This document shows, one piece after another, positions 5,293 through 34,031 of a stretch of 64,000 nucleotides of DNA. Below the pieces are notes generated by a model. It saw only the letters and a program-made list of their open reading frames with translations, was not told the origin of the DNA and ran no database searches. This DNA is from Segetibacter koreensis DSM 18137 (GTDB lineage Bacteria; Bacteroidota; Bacteroidia; Chitinophagales; Chitinophagaceae). The translations under genes were made by a program, and so were the position numbers. The stretch lies in NCBI RefSeq assembly GCF_000374045.1, contig NZ_KB893348.1, positions 186,001-250,000 of the forward strand. Direction: 5' to 3'. Numbering within the stretch: position 1 is the stretch's first letter; each line of letters starts with the position of its first letter.

Positions 5293-6432
5293 TTAAAAAC
5301 TTCTTTCAGCAGCACGCATCCATCTTTCAGGAATGTGATTATCGGCAGCAACCATATAATCATAATGACTGCATGCGATCATTTTTCCATCCGGCGTTTC
5401 CATCCACCATCTCCCGGTTTTTTTACTTTGTAAAAAGGTGGTTTCAATTTCTGCAAAAGCAAGGCGGAATTCATTAAAACTATCCCTGTCTTCCAACTTT
5501 GCTTCGTGCTTACTTTTATTCATTCCATCCATCAGGTACCAAAGCATGTGGGCAATTTGTTTGGCTGTCAGTTCATGCTCATCCTGGTCTGGCAAATATC
5601 CATATATTCCAATTGTATTTACATTTGTGCTCATTCCTGCGTATTGCATTAGTGTACATGCCTCTTCGCCCGTGAAGCCATTGGGAGTAAGCCTGTTAGC
5701 AGGGGCGTGACAGTGTTGAATAGCCGAAATATCGAAACTAAATAGATCAGAGTTACGGATGACCGGTTCCATTTCTTCCAATCTCTCTTTTACCCGCCCA
5801 ACCCTATAGCAGTCAAACCGGAGTTTGTCAATCGTTTCCAACATCGTAGGATGAACGAAATAACTTTGAAAGCCAATATGGTTATAATGTCTTAAAAAAT
5901 TGGGTTCACCTGTTAGCATTTCCATCAAAAAAATGTCAGCGGGAGACACGCCATCTACATCCAAATCAATTTTTGCATCTACACAGGTTGCCTCTATTAT
6001 TTGTTCCATATCAGCATATGCCTTATATTGAGCCAGTGTGAGGTCGTGGCTTCCACCTAATATCACAACCCGTTTTTTGTGCTGGATAAGCTCATTAATA
6101 ACAGACCTTAAGGCGGCGTAGGAGTCATGAAGCGTTGCACCTGGTTTTACATTTCCTATATCCGCTATTTGCACTTCATTGTGCCAGTGAAACAGTGAGT
6201 AAAATTGTCTTCGTATTGCATCCGGTCCCTCATGTATCGTTTCAGAAGGCAGACATCCCCGGTTTTCTCCAAAACCTACAATTACAAAATCAGCATTTTC
6301 CAGATCAGGAAAATATTCTTCATTTACCGACACATGTTTACCTAACTGCGTGTCTTTAAAGCCTTCGTCGTTTGAAAGCTCGTCTAAATTAATAGGTTCA
6401 AGAAAATCAAAAATAGTTTCAAATGGACTCAT
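5293..6432 (-). CDS. Arginase/formimidoylglutamase-fold protein with altered metal site
   Basis: The 379 aa product has the ureohydrolase (arginase/agmatinase/formimidoylglutamase) landmarks: GGSHD at 126-130, VDAKID at 151-156 and SFDIS at 232-236. The usual DAHxD motif has Lys154 in place of His, and the usual SFDxD motif has Ser236 in place of the second Asp, so two of six manganese ligands appear to be lost. The ATG at 6432 is preferred over one at 6522 because the upstream 30 codons read as poor leader sequence while MSPFETIF begins the recognisable domain. It may be a non-catalytic or differently metallated member. No hut genes are nearby. Confidence 0.75.
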   Translation of the reverse strand: MSPFETIFDFLEPINLDELSNDEGFKDTQLGKHVSVNEEYFPDLENADFVIVGFGENRGCLPSETIHEGPDAIRRQFYSLFHWHNEVQIADIGNVKPGATLHDSYAALRSVINELIQHKKRVVILGGSHDLTLAQYKAYADMEQIIEATCVDAKIDLDVDGVSPADIFLMEMLTGEPNFLRHYNHIGFQSYFVHPTMLETIDKLRFDCYRVGRVKERLEEMEPVIRNSDLFSFDISAIQHCHAPANRLTPNGFTGEEACTLMQYAGMSTNVNTIGIYGYLPDQDEHELTAKQIAHMLWYLMDGMNKSKHEAKLEDRDSFNEFRLAFAEIETTFLQSKKTGRWWMETPDGKMIACSHYDYMVAADNHIPERWMRAAERSF

Positions 6433-6582
6433 TCCGCGTTTGCTTTTAAACAAACATAGCAAAAAAAAAATGTAAGACTGGTTATGGGAATAATCAGAAA
6501 AAGACATTTGTTTAATTAACAATAAACTGAATAATTTAAAAGAAAAGTATTTTTGTTACAACCTTTTGTTTTTCATAGCAAC

Positions 6583-6600
6583 ATCGTTGCGTCGCAGTAC
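6583..6600 (-). repeat. Dispersed intergenic motif, copy B (diverged)
   Basis: On the minus strand this contains TGCGACGCAAC, shared with the copy at 25552-25562. It lies between the divergent arginase-like and GNAT genes. Confidence 0.35.
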
Positions 6601-6721
6601 GTTTATCCGCAGTTCTTTTTTCGGCTTTTTCTTCCGCGGCAATAAAATATTATTTAAAAAACGAATCCTGTTATATTTATTCTCAAATCATTCCTTTTGC
6701 ATTACGAATGTTGCTCTATAA

Positions 6722-7228
6722 ATGAATAATCAAGTTGAAATAAGGCCATGGAAACCGGAAGATGCTGCGGCATTGGCATCGATATGTAATAATAAAAAAA
6801 TATGGCTAAACGTCCGTGACCGTTTTCCGCATCCCTACACGGTTTCCAATTCAATAGAATGGATTGCATTTACGCTTTTGCAGAAGCCAATACAGAATAT
6901 GGCAATCATATATAATGGCCAAATAGCCGGAAGCATAGGAGTTATGCCAAAAGATGATATTTACAGAAAAAGCATTGAAATTGGTTATTTTCTTGGTGAG
7001 CCATACTGGGGGAAGGGAATTGCAACAAGGGCTGTAGGTTTACTACTTGAATATATAAAAAGCCATTTTAATGTTATCCGCGTATATGCCGAGGTCTTTA
7101 GTCATAATGCAGCTTCCATGAAAGTGCTTGAAAAAAATGGTTTTCATCTTGAGGGCGTGCGGGAAAAAGCCGTAATAAAAAATAATGTTATATTGGATGA
7201 TTATGTGTGGGTGAAGTTTTTGGAATAG
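6722..7228 (+). CDS. GNAT family N-acetyltransferase (RimJ/RimL-like)
   Basis: The 168 aa length is typical of RimL-like GNAT enzymes. The acetyl-CoA binding motif A is visible as GYFLGEPYWGKGIA (residues 88-101), and the conserved NAASMKVLEKNGF segment at 129-141 is motif B. It would acetylate an amine, perhaps a protein N-terminus or small molecule, in the cytoplasm. The substrate cannot be told from sequence. It stands alone, divergent from the arginase-like gene and convergent with the DUF3857 pair. Confidence 0.88.
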   Translation: MNNQVEIRPWKPEDAAALASICNNKKIWLNVRDRFPHPYTVSNSIEWIAFTLLQKPIQNMAIIYNGQIAGSIGVMPKDDIYRKSIEIGYFLGEPYWGKGIATRAVGLLLEYIKSHFNVIRVYAEVFSHNAASMKVLEKNGFHLEGVREKAVIKNNVILDDYVWVKFLE

Positions 7229-25601: not shown

Positions 25602-27680
25602 CTACTCAACCGCTGCTGGTTCTACCCACGCGTCACTTTCTTTTAACAGCCTAATCAATTCAGACACTGCGATATCGCTGTTTACATTTCGCTTTACCAC
25701 TTCCTTGCCCATGTATAAAGTAATTTTGCCAACACCACTACCAACATAGCCAAAATCGGCATCAGCCATTTCTCCCGGGCCGTTGACAATGCAGCCCATA
25801 ATCGCTATTTTAACCCCTTTGAGGTGATTGGTAACAGCACGTATTTTAGCAGTCGTTTCCTGCAAATCAAAAAGAGTTCGACCGCACGAAGGACAGGAAA
25901 TATATTCCGTTTTTGAGATTCGTGTGCGGGTAGCCTGCAGAATAGAAAAAGCAGTTGAATTTATAAATTGTTCAACCGTTAAATTGTTGAAGTAGTTTCT
26001 GCCGGAAGCATTTGTAACAGATGCATTTTCATAGGCCTTACTCGTCATGCCAAGGCAAATGCCATCGCCAAATCCATCTAAAAGTAACGCCCCACACTCA
26101 GTAGCATAATGAATGAGGTGTTCATCTGCAGTTTTCCAATAGCTATCGCACATAATAACAGCAGGATTAAGAATATTTCTTTGTATAAGTTCCATAAACA
26201 TTCTACGAACAGCCGGCATCGGACGGGGATTGGTGCTGCTAAGGCAAAGAACAACGGTCTTATCATTGGAAATTGCATCTAAATAAGTAAAGTCATTAAT
26301 GGCTGTTACATCATTAAAGCAGTCAATCATTACGAAATTCAGGTGCTTGTTTTTGACTTCGGATTGTACGAAACCACTATCTTGAAAAATAGGAAAATAG
26401 GTATTTTCTCTTTCACTGGCTTCAAACGCTTCCGAACTGAGTGCTTGCTGCCATGCAGAAGGATAAACTATTACTTTTAAAGTACCAGGTAAAGCAAAAG
26501 GCAAAATTTGGTGGCCGGTAAAAATGTAATCTGCAGCAGCATCGCTGATTGTCCATTTATCTGTTGCCATGTTATAAGCGTAGCCGACGCTTTGCAAATC
26601 TTCCCTTGTAATATTTTCGATTTTACTTAAATCAGCAATTACAACAGGCACATGCTTTTCACCAATATTGTCTACTGCAAAAGTTGATCTTCTTTGATAA
26701 ATAAATGGATCATAAGGCACTTTAATAATTGGAGGGATAAACCCGGAAATATTTGAATTATCTGTCACCTGTTCATCATAGGGTAGCGTTTCAGTCCTCT
26801 TCTCGTATCTTTTGACGAGATCACGGCAAACCGGTATTTCGAATTCCGGGTCTTCGGTAAGGCTAACACGAATGGTATCGCCGATACCATCTTCTAGTAA
26901 GGTTCCTATGCCGGCTGCGCTTTTTACCCGCCCATCTTCGCCATCTCCTGCTTCCGTAACCCCTAAATGCAATGGGTAACATTCATTAAACTCCTGCATC
27001 ATTTGCTGTATCAGTAACCTGTAGGCCTGCACCATTACCTGTGGATTGCTGCTTTTCATGCTAAGGATAATGTTGTGATAACTTTCCGCCCTCGCAATTC
27101 TTAAAAACTCCATCGCGCTTTCCACCATTCCCATTGGAGTGTCACCGTAACGACTCATAATACGATCGCTAAGGCTTCCGTGGTTAGTACCAATACGCAT
27201 GGCTGTCCCAAATTCCCGACATATTTTTACGAGTGGCGTAAATCTTTCTCGAATCCTTTCTATCTCATCGTTGTATTCAACATCAGTATATTCTATAAAT
27301 TCAAACTTCTTTTTATCAACATAATTACCTGGATTTACACGAACCTTTTCGACAATCCGCGCCGCTATCTCCGCTGCATTTGGAGTAAAATGTATATCTG
27401 CAATTAAGGGAATTGTATAACCTCGTTTCCTTAATTCATCTTTTATATTTCGTAGGTTTTCCGCTTCTTTTTTACTGGGGGCAGTTATTCGAACTAACTC
27501 TGCGCCCGCTTCAATGCACCTGATGGTTTGTTCTACAGTTGCCATCGTATCCATAGTATCGGTAGTGGTCATCGTCTGCACACGTATTGGATGATTATTT
27601 CCAATCAACAAATCTCCAACCTTTACCTCACGGGTTTGCAGTCTTCTATATTCAGGAAGTGAATTGCAGTATAATTGCAT
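25602..27680 (-). CDS. ispG: 4-hydroxy-3-methylbut-2-enyl diphosphate synthase (large form)
   Basis: IspG (GcpE) reduces methylerythritol cyclodiphosphate in the MEP isoprenoid pathway using a 4Fe-4S cluster. The 692 aa length marks the large three-domain form known from plants, Chlamydia and Bacteroidota, with an extra central domain (about 290-560) between the TIM barrel and the reductase-like domain. The cluster ligands are seen in SCPSCGR and MGCIVNGPGE near the C-terminus. The N-terminus with TREVKVGDLLIG is canonical. It probably feeds the polyprenyl synthase and quinone pathway. Confidence 0.96.
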   Translation of the reverse strand: MQLYCNSLPEYRRLQTREVKVGDLLIGNNHPIRVQTMTTTDTMDTMATVEQTIRCIEAGAELVRITAPSKKEAENLRNIKDELRKRGYTIPLIADIHFTPNAAEIAARIVEKVRVNPGNYVDKKKFEFIEYTDVEYNDEIERIRERFTPLVKICREFGTAMRIGTNHGSLSDRIMSRYGDTPMGMVESAMEFLRIARAESYHNIILSMKSSNPQVMVQAYRLLIQQMMQEFNECYPLHLGVTEAGDGEDGRVKSAAGIGTLLEDGIGDTIRVSLTEDPEFEIPVCRDLVKRYEKRTETLPYDEQVTDNSNISGFIPPIIKVPYDPFIYQRRSTFAVDNIGEKHVPVVIADLSKIENITREDLQSVGYAYNMATDKWTISDAAADYIFTGHQILPFALPGTLKVIVYPSAWQQALSSEAFEASERENTYFPIFQDSGFVQSEVKNKHLNFVMIDCFNDVTAINDFTYLDAISNDKTVVLCLSSTNPRPMPAVRRMFMELIQRNILNPAVIMCDSYWKTADEHLIHYATECGALLLDGFGDGICLGMTSKAYENASVTNASGRNYFNNLTVEQFINSTAFSILQATRTRISKTEYISCPSCGRTLFDLQETTAKIRAVTNHLKGVKIAIMGCIVNGPGEMADADFGYVGSGVGKITLYMGKEVVKRNVNSDIAVSELIRLLKESDAWVEPAAVE

Positions 27681-27789: not shown

Positions 27790-28434
27790 TTACCAGTCCT
27801 TACTATTTGATCTGCCGGTATTATTTTTCTTTTGCAGGTCTTGTTGCAGCTTTTTTTCGTCTTTCCGTAAGGCACTCAACATTTGCTCTACCTGTTTTTC
27901 ATTTAGCTTGCTATTGTTTTTTTGTTGCTCAGGCTGTTTTTGGTTTTGCTGTTTATCCTGTTTTTTGTTTTCTTGTTTTTGCTGGTTTTGCTGAGATTGC
28001 TTTTTTAATTCATTCAGCGCTTTTTGAAGATTTTCTCTTGCTTCTTGATCGGTGGAATTTAGTAGAAGCGATTCCTTATAAGCTTCTATGCTTTCCAATA
28101 ATTTCTTTTGATTGCTTAATGTAACGCCTCTATTGTATAATGCTTTAGATTTTGCTACTTCATCTTTCGTATTAGCAGCAGCCTCGCCAAAAGCCTTTTC
28201 AGCAGCTTCTGATTTTTTTGATTTGTATAAAGCATCTCCAAGGTTATATTGTGCTTTTGCATTTTTAGCATTCAGGTCTGCAGCTTTTTGATACTCCTCT
28301 GCGGCTTTCTCAAACTGCTGTTTTTTATATAGCTCATTGCCCTTAGCCACGAGCGATTGGTCATCCTGGCCTTTAGCAATTAGAGTTACCGGCAGTAACA
28401 TTATTATAAAAACTATTTTTCCCATGAGAACCAT
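27790..28434 (-). CDS. batC: BatC-like TPR protein
   Basis: A 214 aa exported protein: signal peptide at about 1-22, then three or four TPR units (about 25-135) including AKAQYNLGDALYKSKKSEAAEKAF and SKALYNRGVTLSNQKK, then a Gln/Lys/Asn-rich tail (about 140-180) and a charged end. This layout matches BatC of the Bat (Bacteroides aerotolerance) cluster. It overlaps batB by 22 bases, so the two are co-translated. An ATG at 28425 is an alternative start. The Bat system is linked to stress tolerance in some species, with unclear biochemistry. Confidence 0.82.
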   Translation of the reverse strand: MVLMGKIVFIIMLLPVTLIAKGQDDQSLVAKGNELYKKQQFEKAAEEYQKAADLNAKNAKAQYNLGDALYKSKKSEAAEKAFGEAAANTKDEVAKSKALYNRGVTLSNQKKLLESIEAYKESLLLNSTDQEARENLQKALNELKKQSQQNQQKQENKKQDKQQNQKQPEQQKNNSKLNEKQVEQMLSALRKDEKKLQQDLQKKNNTGRSNSKDW

Positions 28435-29423
28435 TTCATTTTTCTTTCAGGAATAATTGTTTCAAGCAGCAGAAGGATAAAAGCAATCAACAAAAACCAC
28501 TGAAAATAAGAACTGTATACTCTTATGCCGGTACCACCGATCTGTTTCTTTTCCATTTGATCAATTGAAGCAGCTAGCTGGGTGGCTACATCATCAGCAC
28601 TGGTAAATAAAAGATATTGACCACCTGTTTGTGTTGCAATTTTTTGAAGATCTTTTTCATTCAGTTTAGAAACTACTGTATTTCCATTTTCATCTTTTTT
28701 ATAATCATTAAGAGCGGGATCAAAAATGGGCGCGCCTTGCGGAGACCCTATCCCAATTGTATAAACGACTACTCCGTTATCCTCAAGCTCCTTCAATGCG
28801 GCATCTGCTTTTTCATCATGGTCTTCACCATCTGAGATCAGTATAACTGCCTTGTATTTTTTTTCTTTTGTATCTAAAGCAGTATTACACAATCTTAATG
28901 CATCGCCAATAACCGTTCCTTGCGTGGGCACAGCATCGGGACCTGCATTAGAAACATACAACCTGGCCGCAGCAAGATCCGAGGTCATTGGCATTTGCAA
29001 AAAAGCCTGGCCGGCAAATACAACCATACCCATACGGTTGTTACCCATTTTATCAATAATGCGGCTAATGACCTGTTTAGCCCTTTCAAGCCTGTTTGGT
29101 TTTATATCCTGCGCAAGCATGCTATTGCTCACATCCAACGCAATCATTACATCTATGCCCGCACGATTACCAGTATTACCTTTTGCAGGTTTTCTTATGT
29201 TTGCTGCTCCTACTATACACAATGCAATTGCTGCAATTATGAGCAAGAATTTGTAATTATAGTTTTTTGCAGAATAGTCAGAAGTGAGAGCATTAACCAA
29301 TTCCTCATCACCTATTTGGTTTTTTACTTTTTTCTTCCATCTTAGTAAAAAAATAAATAAGGTGCAAAGCGGTACAAGGACAAGCAGGCCCGGCAGAAAC
29401 TCAATATGTTGAAACGATAACAT
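28413..29423 (-). CDS. batB: BatB-like von Willebrand factor A membrane protein
   Basis: The 336 aa protein has two N-terminal membrane helices (about 10-27 and 58-75), a VWA domain (about 90-280) with a complete MIDAS metal site (Asp97, Ser99, Ser101 in DVSNS; a later DGEDHDE), and a C-terminal helix (about 308-325). This is the BatA/BatB plan. A separate batA is not present, nor are moxR or DUF58 genes within reach, while batD is found 8 kb away at 37071. BatB is expected in the inner membrane with its VWA domain in the periplasm. Confidence 0.85.
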   Translation of the reverse strand: MLSFQHIEFLPGLLVLVPLCTLFIFLLRWKKKVKNQIGDEELVNALTSDYSAKNYNYKFLLIIAAIALCIVGAANIRKPAKGNTGNRAGIDVMIALDVSNSMLAQDIKPNRLERAKQVISRIIDKMGNNRMGMVVFAGQAFLQMPMTSDLAAARLYVSNAGPDAVPTQGTVIGDALRLCNTALDTKEKKYKAVILISDGEDHDEKADAALKELEDNGVVVYTIGIGSPQGAPIFDPALNDYKKDENGNTVVSKLNEKDLQKIATQTGGQYLLFTSADDVATQLAASIDQMEKKQIGGTGIRVYSSYFQWFLLIAFILLLLETIIPERKMKWFSWEK

Positions 29424-29490: not shown

Positions 29491-30324
29491 TTACATTTTT
29501 CCCTGCAGGTAACCTAATTGTTTTAAGACACCTTTTAAAATATTCATTCTTATTAGAGGCATATTCATACTACGAGTGCCTTCAATATTAAGAGCGAAAA
29601 AATAAGGATGCTGATTTTCTAGAACCCAGCCAATTACCCACCCAACCGCATTACCGTTTTCACGAACCCCCATGCCCGTTTTATAAGCCAGTGTATAATT
29701 TGAATTTTTTTCCATCTCCATAATTTCCTTTACCAGCCTCATACTTCTTTTTTGAAAAGGTAACTGGTCAAAAAAGAGTTTTTTTACAAGTCCGAGTTGT
29801 TCATCTGCCGTTATTTTAATGGAGTTGTCGAGCCAGAAAGTGTCAATCTTATTTATTATAGCTTTTTTGTATCTCGATGCATACCCTAGTGTATCTAGCC
29901 AAAACTGCATAGTGTCTTTACCTATGCGCCGGGCAACTTCCTGAAAGTACGGTATTGCTGATGCTTTGAAAGCTTGAGCCATAGTAAGGTCTTTATTCCA
30001 TTCAGTTGCAGTATCACGATCGGAATTCATTCGATTAATACCATCCCACTTAATCACCATTTTTTCATCGTTGATTTTGCCTGTCTCAAGACCAATGAGA
30101 GAATTTACAATTTCAAAAGTGGAAGCAGGCAGGTAAGCGCTGTCTTTAAAGCGAGGTAAATTATATATTGTAAATTGACCTGAACCGTTATTGTATAAAC
30201 CAAATGTACCCTGTACATGGTTTTCATCAAAATACTTTTTGAGACTGTTATCAATTGTAACATTGTTTTGGTTACAAGCAGCGAAGCCAACAGCAAAGAG
30301 CAGAAAAACATACCAAGTCTTCAT
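29491..30324 (-). CDS. Class D beta-lactamase homologue with Lys-to-Glu change in SxxK
   Basis: The 277 aa lipoprotein-like product (Cys17) aligns with OXA-type class D enzymes across its length: PASTFEIVNSLIGLETG (66-82), the WDGINR and WNKDLTMAQAFKASAIPYFQEVARRIG blocks, FWLDNSIKI and KTG at 215-217. The nucleophile Ser68 is present, but the carboxylated lysine of STFK is Glu71 (codon GAA), and the second motif is SAI rather than SxV. Without that lysine, deacylation should fail, so it may be a penicillin-binding or sensing protein instead of a hydrolase. The ATG at 30324 is chosen over 30423 because it starts a clean lipoprotein signal. Confidence 0.82.
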   Translation of the reverse strand: MKTWYVFLLFAVGFAACNQNNVTIDNSLKKYFDENHVQGTFGLYNNGSGQFTIYNLPRFKDSAYLPASTFEIVNSLIGLETGKINDEKMVIKWDGINRMNSDRDTATEWNKDLTMAQAFKASAIPYFQEVARRIGKDTMQFWLDTLGYASRYKKAIINKIDTFWLDNSIKITADEQLGLVKKLFFDQLPFQKRSMRLVKEIMEMEKNSNYTLAYKTGMGVRENGNAVGWVIGWVLENQHPYFFALNIEGTRSMNMPLIRMNILKGVLKQLGYLQGKM

Positions 30325-30682: not shown

Positions 30683-31171
30683 ATGACGGAGCAACAATAT
30701 AATGAGTGTGTTAACATGTATGCAGACAATGTGTACCGATTTATAGTGAAAAACCTTCGCCATGAAGAGGATGCACGTGATATAGTACAAACTGCGTTTG
30801 AGAAGATGTGGCGAAACAAAGATGCAGTGGACAATGAAAAAAGCAAATCGTACCTTTTTACTGTAGCCTATAACCAGATGATCGATCACGTAAGAAAAGT
30901 AAAACGGGTGCACTTGACAGAAGATTTTTCGGAAACGAGCCAAGGAGTTCAATACCAGGTTAACAAAAACGTGCAAAAAACGTTGCAGGAAGCATTGAAC
31001 CGTTTGAATGAAACACAGCGAAGCCTGGTTATGCTTAAGGACTATGAAGGGTACAATTATGAAGAAATAGGCCGGATAACAGGACTGAACGAAAGTCAGG
31101 TGAAAGTGTACCTGCACAGAGCGAGGATAACATTGCGAAATTATTTAGTGAGCCAGGAGAATGTGATATAA
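30683..31171 (+). CDS. ECF-type RNA polymerase sigma factor
   Basis: A 162 aa sigma-70 family protein. Region 2 (about 5-75) includes the RHEEDARDIVQTAFEKMWRN segment that contacts the -10 element and core polymerase. Region 4 (about 100-155) has the helix-turn-helix with NYEEIGRITGLNESQVKVYLHRAR. There is no region 3, as expected for the extracytoplasmic function class. The next gene encodes an anti-sigma-like membrane protein and the third an outer-membrane barrel, so it probably controls an envelope response. Confidence 0.92.
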   Translation: MTEQQYNECVNMYADNVYRFIVKNLRHEEDARDIVQTAFEKMWRNKDAVDNEKSKSYLFTVAYNQMIDHVRKVKRVHLTEDFSETSQGVQYQVNKNVQKTLQEALNRLNETQRSLVMLKDYEGYNYEEIGRITGLNESQVKVYLHRARITLRNYLVSQENVI

Positions 31172-31217
31172 GTTAATGAGGAGATGGTTGAGCTGAAAAA
31201 CATTAAATACGAAAACA

Positions 31218-32315
31218 GTGATGATTAACAGACATAATTATGAAGAGTTTTTTCTGTTGTATGTAGACAAAGAACTTGATGCGGAGGGGTTTGCAGCAGT
31301 TGAAAGTTTCGTTAGCCAAAATCCTGACCTTGCTAAAGAACTGGATATTTTGCAACGGGCAACCCTTGAAGACAATACAGTTTTATTTACCCAAAAAGAA
31401 CTTTTATATAAAAAAGAGGACAGTATATCCATCCATAATTATGAAGAATATTTTTTGCTAGGTGCAGATAATGAATTGAATGAACAACAGGCTGCAGAAG
31501 TTGAAAATTTCGTTTTAAAACATCCGGAGCTGCAAAATGAATTTACAATACTGCAAAAAACAAGATTACATCCTGAGGTAGTTGCATTTGCAGGCAAGGA
31601 GAAATTGTATCGGAGAGAGAAAAGCGTAAGAAGAATTGTACCATTGGTTTGGGTGAGAATGGGGGTGGCCGCCGCTATTGTTGGCATTGCTTATATTTCT
31701 TTTATAAACATCACCGATACCAACAGCAGTGCTAAGAATCGGATGATAAATTCTAAAAGAACAACTGCAAAAATTGTTGTAGAAAAAAATAAGGCAGATA
31801 AAGCTCAAAAACTTGTAACAGAAAATCCACTGGCATCGTTAAACACTACAAAGGAAAGAACTGATAAGGTAAAAAAGTTACCAGCAAATAAAGCCGCGTT
31901 TCAAAAAGTTCGTAATCAAAAGGTTGAAATAATTGAAAACAAGCAAGAATCGGTTGCTACTAATGTAAAAAAACCTGAAAATAAGATTGAGCAACAACCG
32001 GTAGTAAATATAGGAACAGTTAAAAAGGAGCCAGAACTTGCTGAGGTACCTATAGAAAAGAACCATTTTAGCGATAACAATAATACTTCTGGTTTAGTTA
32101 ATCCCAGCGAAAAAAACGCTGTAATGATAAATGAACCAATTGTTAAAGAAGAGAAGCCGCTGGCAACTCACGCTGTATACCTGGAAACTGACAATGTGGA
32201 GGAAGAAAGAAATGTATATATAGGGTCGGCCGAAATAAATAAGAACAAACTAAAAGGGCTTTTAAAAAAAGCATCCGTTTTTTTAGATAAGAAGATCCGC
32301 AGAAACGACGAATAA
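31218..32315 (+). CDS. Anti-sigma-like membrane protein with duplicated N-terminal module
   Basis: The 365 aa protein begins with two copies of a helical module of about 60 residues, one at about 4-66 and one at about 74-134, each starting HNYEE(F/Y)FLL and containing D(K/N)EL and FVxxxPxL. A membrane helix follows at about 143-164, then a Lys/Glu/Asn-rich periplasmic tail. Single copies of such modules occur in Bacteroidota proteins encoded after ECF sigma genes. No HxxxCxxC zinc motif is present. Position and layout suggest it sequesters the sigma factor; direct evidence is lacking. Confidence 0.7.
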   Translation: MMINRHNYEEFFLLYVDKELDAEGFAAVESFVSQNPDLAKELDILQRATLEDNTVLFTQKELLYKKEDSISIHNYEEYFLLGADNELNEQQAAEVENFVLKHPELQNEFTILQKTRLHPEVVAFAGKEKLYRREKSVRRIVPLVWVRMGVAAAIVGIAYISFINITDTNSSAKNRMINSKRTTAKIVVEKNKADKAQKLVTENPLASLNTTKERTDKVKKLPANKAAFQKVRNQKVEIIENKQESVATNVKKPENKIEQQPVVNIGTVKKEPELAEVPIEKNHFSDNNNTSGLVNPSEKNAVMINEPIVKEEKPLATHAVYLETDNVEEERNVYIGSAEINKNKLKGLLKKASVFLDKKIRRNDE

Positions 32316-32379
32316 TAAAATTGATAGCATCAACACCAAAGAAAAGAACTCTACACTACAACCAAATTATCAAAAAGCA

Positions 32380-33225
32380 ATGAAAAAGATTTACATGATT
32401 CTCGCAACCTTGCTGGTTGCCCTGGCAGGATTTGCACAAACCGACACTACTAAAAGCATTACGGATACAACGCAAAACAGAGGTGACACTCTTGTAGTTG
32501 GAAATTTTATTATCATTAAAAAGAACAGGGATAATAGAACAAATAAAATTTCTATAGAAAAGAGACCATATACACCTTCGAAGCTAAAAACCAATTGGTG
32601 GATTTTCGATCTTGGTTTTGCCAATATCAATGATAAAACAAATTATGCAAGTGCTGATGCACAAAGCTTTCTACATACGATAAGGCCTGGAGATAAGCCA
32701 ATAACTAAAGATGACCTGAAACTGAGAGCTGGTAAAAGCTCAAACGTAAACATATGGGTTGTTATGCAGCGGCTTAACCTTGAAAAAGGCTATGTAAACC
32801 TTAAATATGGGTTAGGGGTCGAAATGTTTAATTTCCGGTACGAAAGCAATATAAGTTATAATAAAAATCCTGTCTATATTTTCAGGGATACCGTCAATTT
32901 TTCTAAAAACAAATTATATGCAGCTTATGCGTCCGTTCCTTTCATGTTAAATATAAACACAAATCCGGGTCACAACGGACTAACCTTTAGTGCGGGAGTA
33001 AGCGCAGGTTACCTGATTGGAAGCCATAATAAACAAATAAGCGGCGAAAGGGGTAAAGTAAAAACCAAAGGAGACCTTGGCCTGGAAAAATTTCGCCTTG
33101 CCTATATTGGTGAGCTTGGCATCGGCCCAATTCATCTTTATGGAACTTACAGCATCCATAAATTGCACGAAAATGGTCTAGAGCAGTACCCCTACAGCAT
33201 TGGGATAAGATTTAGCAACTTTTGA
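32380..33225 (+). CDS. Outer-membrane beta-barrel protein (PorT-like)
   Basis: A 281 aa protein with a signal peptide (about 1-19, ending GFAQ) and a Thr/Asp-rich start. The rest alternates short amphipathic strands with Tyr/Phe/Gly and ends in an aromatic residue (IGIRFSNF), as is usual for an outer-membrane barrel of the OMP_b-brl_2 kind. It is the third gene after the sigma and anti-sigma-like genes, with a 64 bp gap, so it may be part of that operon or its target. Specific function is unknown. Confidence 0.7.
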   Translation: MKKIYMILATLLVALAGFAQTDTTKSITDTTQNRGDTLVVGNFIIIKKNRDNRTNKISIEKRPYTPSKLKTNWWIFDLGFANINDKTNYASADAQSFLHTIRPGDKPITKDDLKLRAGKSSNVNIWVVMQRLNLEKGYVNLKYGLGVEMFNFRYESNISYNKNPVYIFRDTVNFSKNKLYAAYASVPFMLNINTNPGHNGLTFSAGVSAGYLIGSHNKQISGERGKVKTKGDLGLEKFRLAYIGELGIGPIHLYGTYSIHKLHENGLEQYPYSIGIRFSNF

Positions 33226-33284
33226 TCGGTAAAACTTTAAAAAAACAGAGAGCTGCCTTGCGCTGCTATGAAATTATGAGGTAC

Positions 33285-33301
33285 AAGTGAGTGACACAAC
33301 G
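33285..33301 (+). repeat. Dispersed intergenic motif, copy D
   Basis: AAGTGAGTGACACAACG, identical over 17 bases to copy A on the minus strand at 2544-2560. It lies 60 bases after the PorT-like gene in the gap before the L,D-transpeptidase. Confidence 0.5.
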
Positions 33302-33509
33302 GAAGTCGATAATTGAACTAATGCTGTGTCCAAAAAAGATACTATTTTTCTTGGAGTTAATAACTTTGCAGGTGATTTTTAATTATCAACATGCTTCGCC
33401 CAATGCGGCAGCACAGGGCTAAATGCTTCGTAAACTTTTGTGAAATGTAGAAACGATTTAAATGTTCTTGGTAATTTTCCATCAAAATAAAATTATTACA
33501 AGGAACAGT

Positions 33510-34031
33510 ATGATGCGGCTTCGTTTCATTTTAATTCTTGCTGTTGTTTTGGTTGTAAACACTTCGTTTTATACTGGAAATAACAGCAAGAGTGCTTATT
33601 ATATAGTTATTGACAAAAGTGATTACGAATTAAATGTGTATGACGCGCAGGGGTGGCTGGTAGCTTTTCCCGTTGTTTTTGGAAACGATGACCAGGGAGA
33701 TAAATTAGTAGCGGGCGACCGAAAAACGCCTGAAGGTTCATTTACAATTGTAAGCAAAAGAATACATAACAAGTGGTGCCGTTACATGGGCCTCGACTTT
33801 CCTACTGCCGCTGATATTAATAAATTTAATTTGAGAAAGCAGCAGGGATTGGTACCGCCATATGCAAAGGAGGGTGGAGGTATAGGCATACACGGAACAT
33901 GGCCACACGAAGAAAATGCCGTGGACCAATATCAAAACTGGACAGAAGGCTGCATTAGTATGAAAAACGAGCATGTAAAGCAGTTATACAACATGATACC
34001 AATCGGAACAAGGGTTATTATTCAAAAATAG
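33510..34031 (+). CDS. L,D-transpeptidase catalytic domain (YkuD) protein
   Basis: The 173 aa product (from the ATG at 33510; an upstream ATG at 33462 adds a poor 16-residue leader) has an N-terminal signal anchor and then a YkuD domain. The GIHGTWP segment supplies the conserved histidine and TEGCISM the nucleophilic cysteine; the common SHGCIRL is altered so that Arg is replaced by Ser. Such enzymes form 3-3 peptidoglycan cross-links or anchor proteins to the wall. A related ErfK-like role is possible. It ends three bases from the convergent hydrolase gene. Confidence 0.85.
   Translation: MMRLRFILILAVVLVVNTSFYTGNNSKSAYYIVIDKSDYELNVYDAQGWLVAFPVVFGNDDQGDKLVAGDRKTPEGSFTIVSKRIHNKWCRYMGLDFPTAADINKFNLRKQQGLVPPYAKEGGGIGIHGTWPHEENAVDQYQNWTEGCISMKNEHVKQLYNMIPIGTRVIIQK

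Follow-up and report, generated by a model that had tools for sequence, protein, structure and literature searches.

A class D beta-lactamase-like core lipoprotein of Segetibacter koreensis with glutamate in place of the carbamylated lysine

The carboxylated lysine of class D beta-lactamases is the general base in both acylation and deacylation (PMC9293634). The K84D variant of OXA-24/40 is deacylation-deficient, and its crystals trap carbapenem acyl-enzymes; ertapenem is bound by this variant intact and unproductively (PMC9293634). The PDB holds complexes of OXA-48 K73A with imipenem and of OXA-163 K73A with meropenem, and for OXA-1 K70 the term "deacylation-deficient" stands in a title cited by two further papers (PMC4790369 and PMC4463611). 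Among the class D motifs, the valine of SxV is the most variable position and is often another hydrophobic residue (PMC9045261). Natural homologues with impaired motifs, including "pseudo-DBL" with a demonstrated low activity or different function, are already recognised, e.g., the SxxH cluster 14 and the Ser-less cluster 12 (PMC9045261). The closest relative of solved structure of the protein analyzed here is Cpin_0907, a class D enzyme of Chitinophaga pinensis (PMC9455217; PDB 7K3M and 8EP6).

The gene lies on the minus strand of the window, i.e., the whole stretch of 64,000 nucleotides of S. koreensis DNA that was analyzed (Table 1). From its ATG start, which agrees with orthologues aligning from the first Met, it encodes 277 amino acids, and residues 1-17 (MKTWYVFLLFAVGFAAC) are predicted to be a lipoprotein signal peptide. 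A profile search of the protein found a single domain, Pfam Transpeptidase (E = 5.1e-26), and the NCBIfam class D model matched with E = 4.9e-66 and 222 bits, just below the 250-bit cut-off of that model. The best solved relatives in a PDB search were 7k3m (E = 8.7e-84) and 8ep6, and an AlphaFold2 model of the protein, built with 36 orthologues (pLDDT 91), superimposed on 7k3m with a TM of 0.97 by target length and an rmsd of 1.2 A. Therefore, the similarity of fold and sequence, with the serine of SxxK in place (Ser68), assigns the protein to the class D structural family. We confirmed the original prediction of a class D homologue that keeps the OXA-type motifs (PASTF, WNKDLTMAQAFKASAIPYFQE, KTG and GWVIGW are all present) and has Glu at the position of the carboxylated lysine, codon 71 being GAA in the context TCC ACT TTT GAA ATT. 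Of the features expected in a functional class D enzyme, KT/SG (as KTG), WxxG (as WVIG), the omega-loop Trp (Trp164) and SxV or SxI/L (as SAI) are found, whereas the Lys of SxxK, the carbamylated general base, is replaced by Glu71. Thus, the protein is a structural member of class D but lacks one of the features that define a functional class D enzyme. The Val to Ile replacement that turns SxV into SAI is the second active-site change in the protein.

Table 1. Features of the class D-like gene and its surroundings; positions refer to the window except for the last row, where they refer to the respective loci of other genomes
Feature	Position	Strand	Basis
Class D beta-lactamase-like lipoprotein gene, STFE	29491..30324, stop codon included (29494-30324 without stop)	-	ORF; profile and structure matches
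Lipobox cysteine Cys17	30274..30276	-	invariant in the orthologues compared, motif-less clade included
Nucleophile Ser68 codon	30121..30123	-	translation and alignments
Codon 71, GAA (Glu)	30112..30114	-	71 of the 76 further orthologues carry Lys
SxV motif, reads SAI, residues 122-124	29953..29961	-	alignments
Omega-loop Trp164, kept (carbamate-stabilising Trp in active enzymes)	29833..29835	-	alignments
KTG motif, residues 215-217, kept	29674..29682	-	alignments
GWVIGW including WxxG, kept	29626..29643	-	translation and alignment
BatA/B-type vWA protein with an Aerotolerance-regulator N-terminus, first gene downstream	28413..29423	-	conserved neighbour
TPR protein (BatC type)	27790..28434	-	conserved neighbour
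ispG/gcpE	25602..27680	-	conserved neighbour, next to the motif-less genes as well
Motif-less gene	~6001-6732; L062, 5732-6436; L066, 2946-3653		next to ispG

The S. koreensis protein is a probable orthologue of Cpin_0907, with which it shares the family, the fold and 52% identity in the structural alignment; the difference lies in STFE and SAI, compared to STFK and SAV in Cpin_0907. Plasmid-borne class D enzymes (35-40% identity) have the same fold, the serine, an SxV-type motif, the omega-loop Trp, KTG and WxxG; the S. koreensis protein differs from them in having no general-base Lys and in its chromosomal core lipoprotein locus. A single A-to-G difference would suffice to produce the observed codon from that of an ordinary STFK gene by a base-call or assembly error. 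However, the assembly is near-complete with low contamination (99.97% and 0.28%, respectively), the protein carries another, conservative active-site change (SAI), and the same kind of loss occurs in five other lineages (see below); we consider an error highly improbable.

The pocket is intact (Ser68, Ser122, Trp164, Lys215-Thr-Gly and WxxG), so that beta-lactams would be expected still to bind and to acylate Ser68, slowly at best. The side chain of Glu is shorter, and its carboxylate would not reach the site from which the lysine carbamate activates the water for deacylation. With no carboxylate at this site, the acyl-enzyme would persist, with essentially no turnover, and the protein would act as a weak penicillin-binding pseudoenzyme. 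The SAI motif could also change acylation. The original prediction that the protein can perhaps be acylated and cannot turn over penicillins is thus probable by analogy with OXA-24/40 K84D, OXA-48 and OXA-163 K73A, and OXA-1 K70, the Lys mutants in the sources used for this analogy being Asp or Ala. For Glu, the OXA-1 study of Schneider (2009) reportedly included K70E and observed Bocillin acylation without recoverable deacylation. The laboratory mutants (OXA-24/40 K84D, OXA-48 K73A and the OXA-1 K70 series) have lost the same position and some of them accumulate acyl-enzyme; they are man-made, whereas the change in S. koreensis occurs in nature and has become fixed in a genome.

It is possible, in principle, that the glutamate (or the aspartate found elsewhere) is an encoded carboxylate that serves as the general base instead of the lysine carbamate, yielding a working CO2-independent enzyme, perhaps with a non-drug substrate. 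As the original prediction proposed, we tabulated residue 71 in a non-redundant set of 77 orthologues: 71 carry Lys, 4 carry Asp and 1 carries Asn, and Glu is present in S. koreensis only. Of nine matches within the genus, eight are clear orthologues with STFK throughout; the ninth, in genome G003 (L079, 1525-2232), is an STFK homologue that is 35% identical, perhaps a paralogue, with the true orthologue missing from the assembly. In DNA-pattern censuses of the same Chitinophagaceae genome sample, PASTF followed by a non-Lys codon was found in class D genes of S. koreensis (Glu), G091, G140 and G383 (Asp) and G343 (Asn) only; the remaining matches that were inspected proved to be unrelated sequence. 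It should be noted that cases may be missed in these censuses, both because the search for codons outside Asp/Glu/Asn also demanded a following I-[IMVLF] and because some pattern matches lacking a locus were discarded on the basis of their coordinates or of a non-Ser third residue.

In all bootstrap trees of an 81-row data set, the non-Lys state arises by six changes: (i) Segetibacter (Glu); (ii) the pair L039 and L054 (Asp); (iii) L107 (Asp), the placement of which is unsure because of its long branch; (iv) L111 (Asp); (v) L050, Chitinophaga arvensicola (Asn); and (vi) L199 (Asn). By event, the replacements found are Glu once, Asp three times and Asn twice, and never Arg, Gln, Thr, Ile, Met or Ser. 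If the one-step neighbours were equally acceptable, the probability that six of six fall in the Glu/Asn set would be ~0.006-0.01, with the reservation that the numbers are small and that Asp needs two steps. There is thus a hint that short polar or acidic residues are preferred at position 71, which counts in favor of an encoded carboxylate. Conversely, Asp at the same position leaves OXA-24/40 deacylation-deficient, two of the six events lead to Asn, which has no carboxylate, and the side chains of both Glu and Asp are shorter than carbamyl-lysine.

Other motifs also point to loss. In the 77-row set, the SxV valine is lost in 5 of 6 non-Lys orthologues vs. 5 of 71 Lys orthologues (Fisher 7e-5), and KT/SG is lost in 3 of 6 vs. 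0 of 71 (Fisher 2.7e-4); these tests ignore relatedness, and L039 and L054 are sisters. The L199 protein, added after these tests, follows the same pattern, with SAA and QTG. The loss of KT/SG together with Lys speaks against an encoded carboxylate, which we regard as improbable. Residue 117 of OXA-10, i.e., the SxV valine, affects the water exposure of the nucleophile and of the carboxylated lysine (PMC7459404), and so the co-variation of Lys and SxV would make structural sense. Among the non-Lys members, the serine, S-A-hydrophobic and KTG are all kept in S. koreensis and L107 only, and the S. koreensis copy is the mildest case of Lys loss. L107 (1280-2086) is an independent STFD orthologue with SAV and KTG intact and a very long branch (1.28), and thus another carboxylate form that occurs in nature. 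L111 (979-1713, minus strand of its locus) has STFD, a deletion of ~33 residues before SxV, which now reads QAI, and KIG for KTG; its ORF is open and its branch is 0.9. A separate observation concerns L038 (6001-6783), a YTFK orthologue that has no nucleophile Ser and in which Lys, SSV and KTG are present. Taken together, these comparisons suggest that catalysis has been lost repeatedly in a core lipoprotein gene, in many cases along with other active-site features, and do not suggest a purpose-built receptor.

Class D gene matches were present in 376 of 396 genomes of a sample drawn evenly from Chitinophagaceae. Where the locus is long enough for a judgement, the gene is in most cases just upstream, on the same strand, of the vWA, TPR and ispG genes. 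The GC3 of the class D gene equals that of its neighbours, and there were no plasmid matches at or above 60% identity, all of those found being below this value. The conserved place, the GC3 and the weak plasmid matches rule out a mobile or acquired resistance gene and identify this gene, as judged from sequence and position, as a vertically inherited chromosomal orthologue of a near-universal Chitinophagaceae core lipoprotein gene.

The sensor domains of BlaR1 and MecR1 have the same fold, are recovered in profile and structure matches, and use long-lived acylation for sensing. However, BlaR1 retains its lysine, and both BlaR1 and MecR1 have a fused N-terminal membrane metalloprotease; the S. 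koreensis protein has neither, being a 277-aa lipoprotein with one Transpeptidase domain and no transmembrane, protease or signalling domain. A repressor of the blaI/mecI type and a blaR1-like gene are absent among the immediate neighbours (ispG, TPR, vWA, an ECF sigma factor and one further protein), the conserved place is the same as that of the Lys-bearing orthologues, and a decoy would require high abundance. Therefore, a dedicated beta-lactam sensor, PBP or decoy, as also offered by the original prediction, is quite improbable, and this part of the prediction was not supported. Divergent from the class D gene, positions 30683-34031 of the window encode an ECF sigma factor, a further protein, an outer-membrane barrel-like protein and an L,D-transpeptidase (YkuD); this block is also upstream in several other genera. 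The sole match to the Bacteroidota promoter consensus near the class D gene is inside the gene, and the window as a whole has fewer matches than expected by chance.

Only one class D homologue was found in the 6.1 Mb genome, so redundancy with another class D gene was rejected. The same genome has a class A-like ORF (L202, 1354-2307, minus strand) with SMIK, SDN and KHG replacing KTG, which scores 78 bits compared to a cut-off of 200 bits, and no class B beta-lactamase match above the cut-off. The literature searched contained nothing useful on the phenotype of Segetibacter.

The remaining alternative is early pseudogenisation: K71E would be neutral or slightly deleterious, catalysis being unneeded, and the gene would have no function in S. 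koreensis and further decay ahead of it. The loss of other active-site residues along with Lys elsewhere in the family, the long branches of L107 and L111 and the deletion in the latter are consistent with this scenario, as are SAI and the 5 departures at 95 conserved columns in the S. koreensis copy, compared to 0-3 in most sisters. Conversely, its ORF is intact, its terminal branch (0.28) is within the range of the four nearest sisters (0.13-0.29), and its pN to those sisters is 0.14-0.15, compared to 0.09-0.16 between Lys-bearing sisters. Accelerated evolution of the S. koreensis copy is thus not seen, and the ordinary end branch and pN indicate that there is no general decay. Because dS is saturated against every available relative, a branch-specific dN/dS is not obtainable, and the age of K71E and any later constraint are beyond measurement. 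These comparisons indicate either continued constraint on the entire protein or a recent origin of K71E.

Constraint is also detected where the active site is gone. A group of motif-less relatives (L061-L067, L069 and L070), from Chitinophagaceae and relatives including a Sediminibacterium MAG, occupies the orthologous place directly upstream of ispG. In these proteins, SxxK has become NTFF or similar, the SxV segment is deleted or unrecognisable, and KTG is replaced by ITG, IIG or LSS; an N-terminal C-x-P-N-N and an ENQHPYFF strand are strongly kept. The best match of the predicted fold is 7k3m and the second is the BlaR sensor domain. The dN/dS of close motif-less pairs is 0.06-0.12, compared to 0.02-0.05 for Lys-bearing pairs; with all motifs lost, such values suggest that the protein has a use independent of catalysis. 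A non-catalytic function appears well supported in the motif-less clade and is plausible, by analogy, in S. koreensis, which is in a different clade, the support for this role coming from the motif-less genes. The persistence of constraint in these relatives is a further argument against pseudogenisation, which we consider somewhat unlikely.

On balance, we favor, with moderate confidence, the reading that the S. koreensis gene is an orthologue of a core class D-fold lipoprotein in which the general base Lys has been replaced by Glu, that the product is a weak penicillin-binding pseudoenzyme, and that the gene is kept for a function independent of turnover. The last point is probable because the motif-less clade beside ispG is under purifying selection. 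More tentatively, and as a possibility rather than an expectation, the core class D lipoprotein of Chitinophagaceae may have a cell-envelope function that is tied to the Bat/ispG locus and independent of beta-lactam turnover; catalysis would be dispensable, having been abolished via the carbamylated Lys on at least six occasions and completely in one clade, with the protein still selected, and the S. koreensis form would be a minimal natural separation-of-function.

As far as our search reaches, the following appear to be new: a natural Glu variant whose active site is otherwise intact, the independent loss of the carbamylated Lys on several occasions among the syntenic orthologues of a single family, and a motif-less clade that is under constraint. 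Like the pseudo-DBL and other motif-impaired clusters (PMC9045261), these are class D homologues from nature in which catalytic motifs are altered and activity is undemonstrated; the case of S. koreensis differs in being a single-residue Lys loss in an otherwise active-looking orthologous family, where such loss has occurred several independent times. The S. koreensis protein is a natural counterpart of the laboratory deacylation-deficient mutants. Class D enzymes get counted as resistance genes by homology. Here, a gene that is carried at a fixed chromosomal place by most genomes of a large family of soil and freshwater bacteria has some members that cannot be ordinary beta-lactamases. Together with the conserved clade in which the active site is gone, this points to a function distinct from drug resistance and is a warning against annotating such genes as resistance genes from homology alone.
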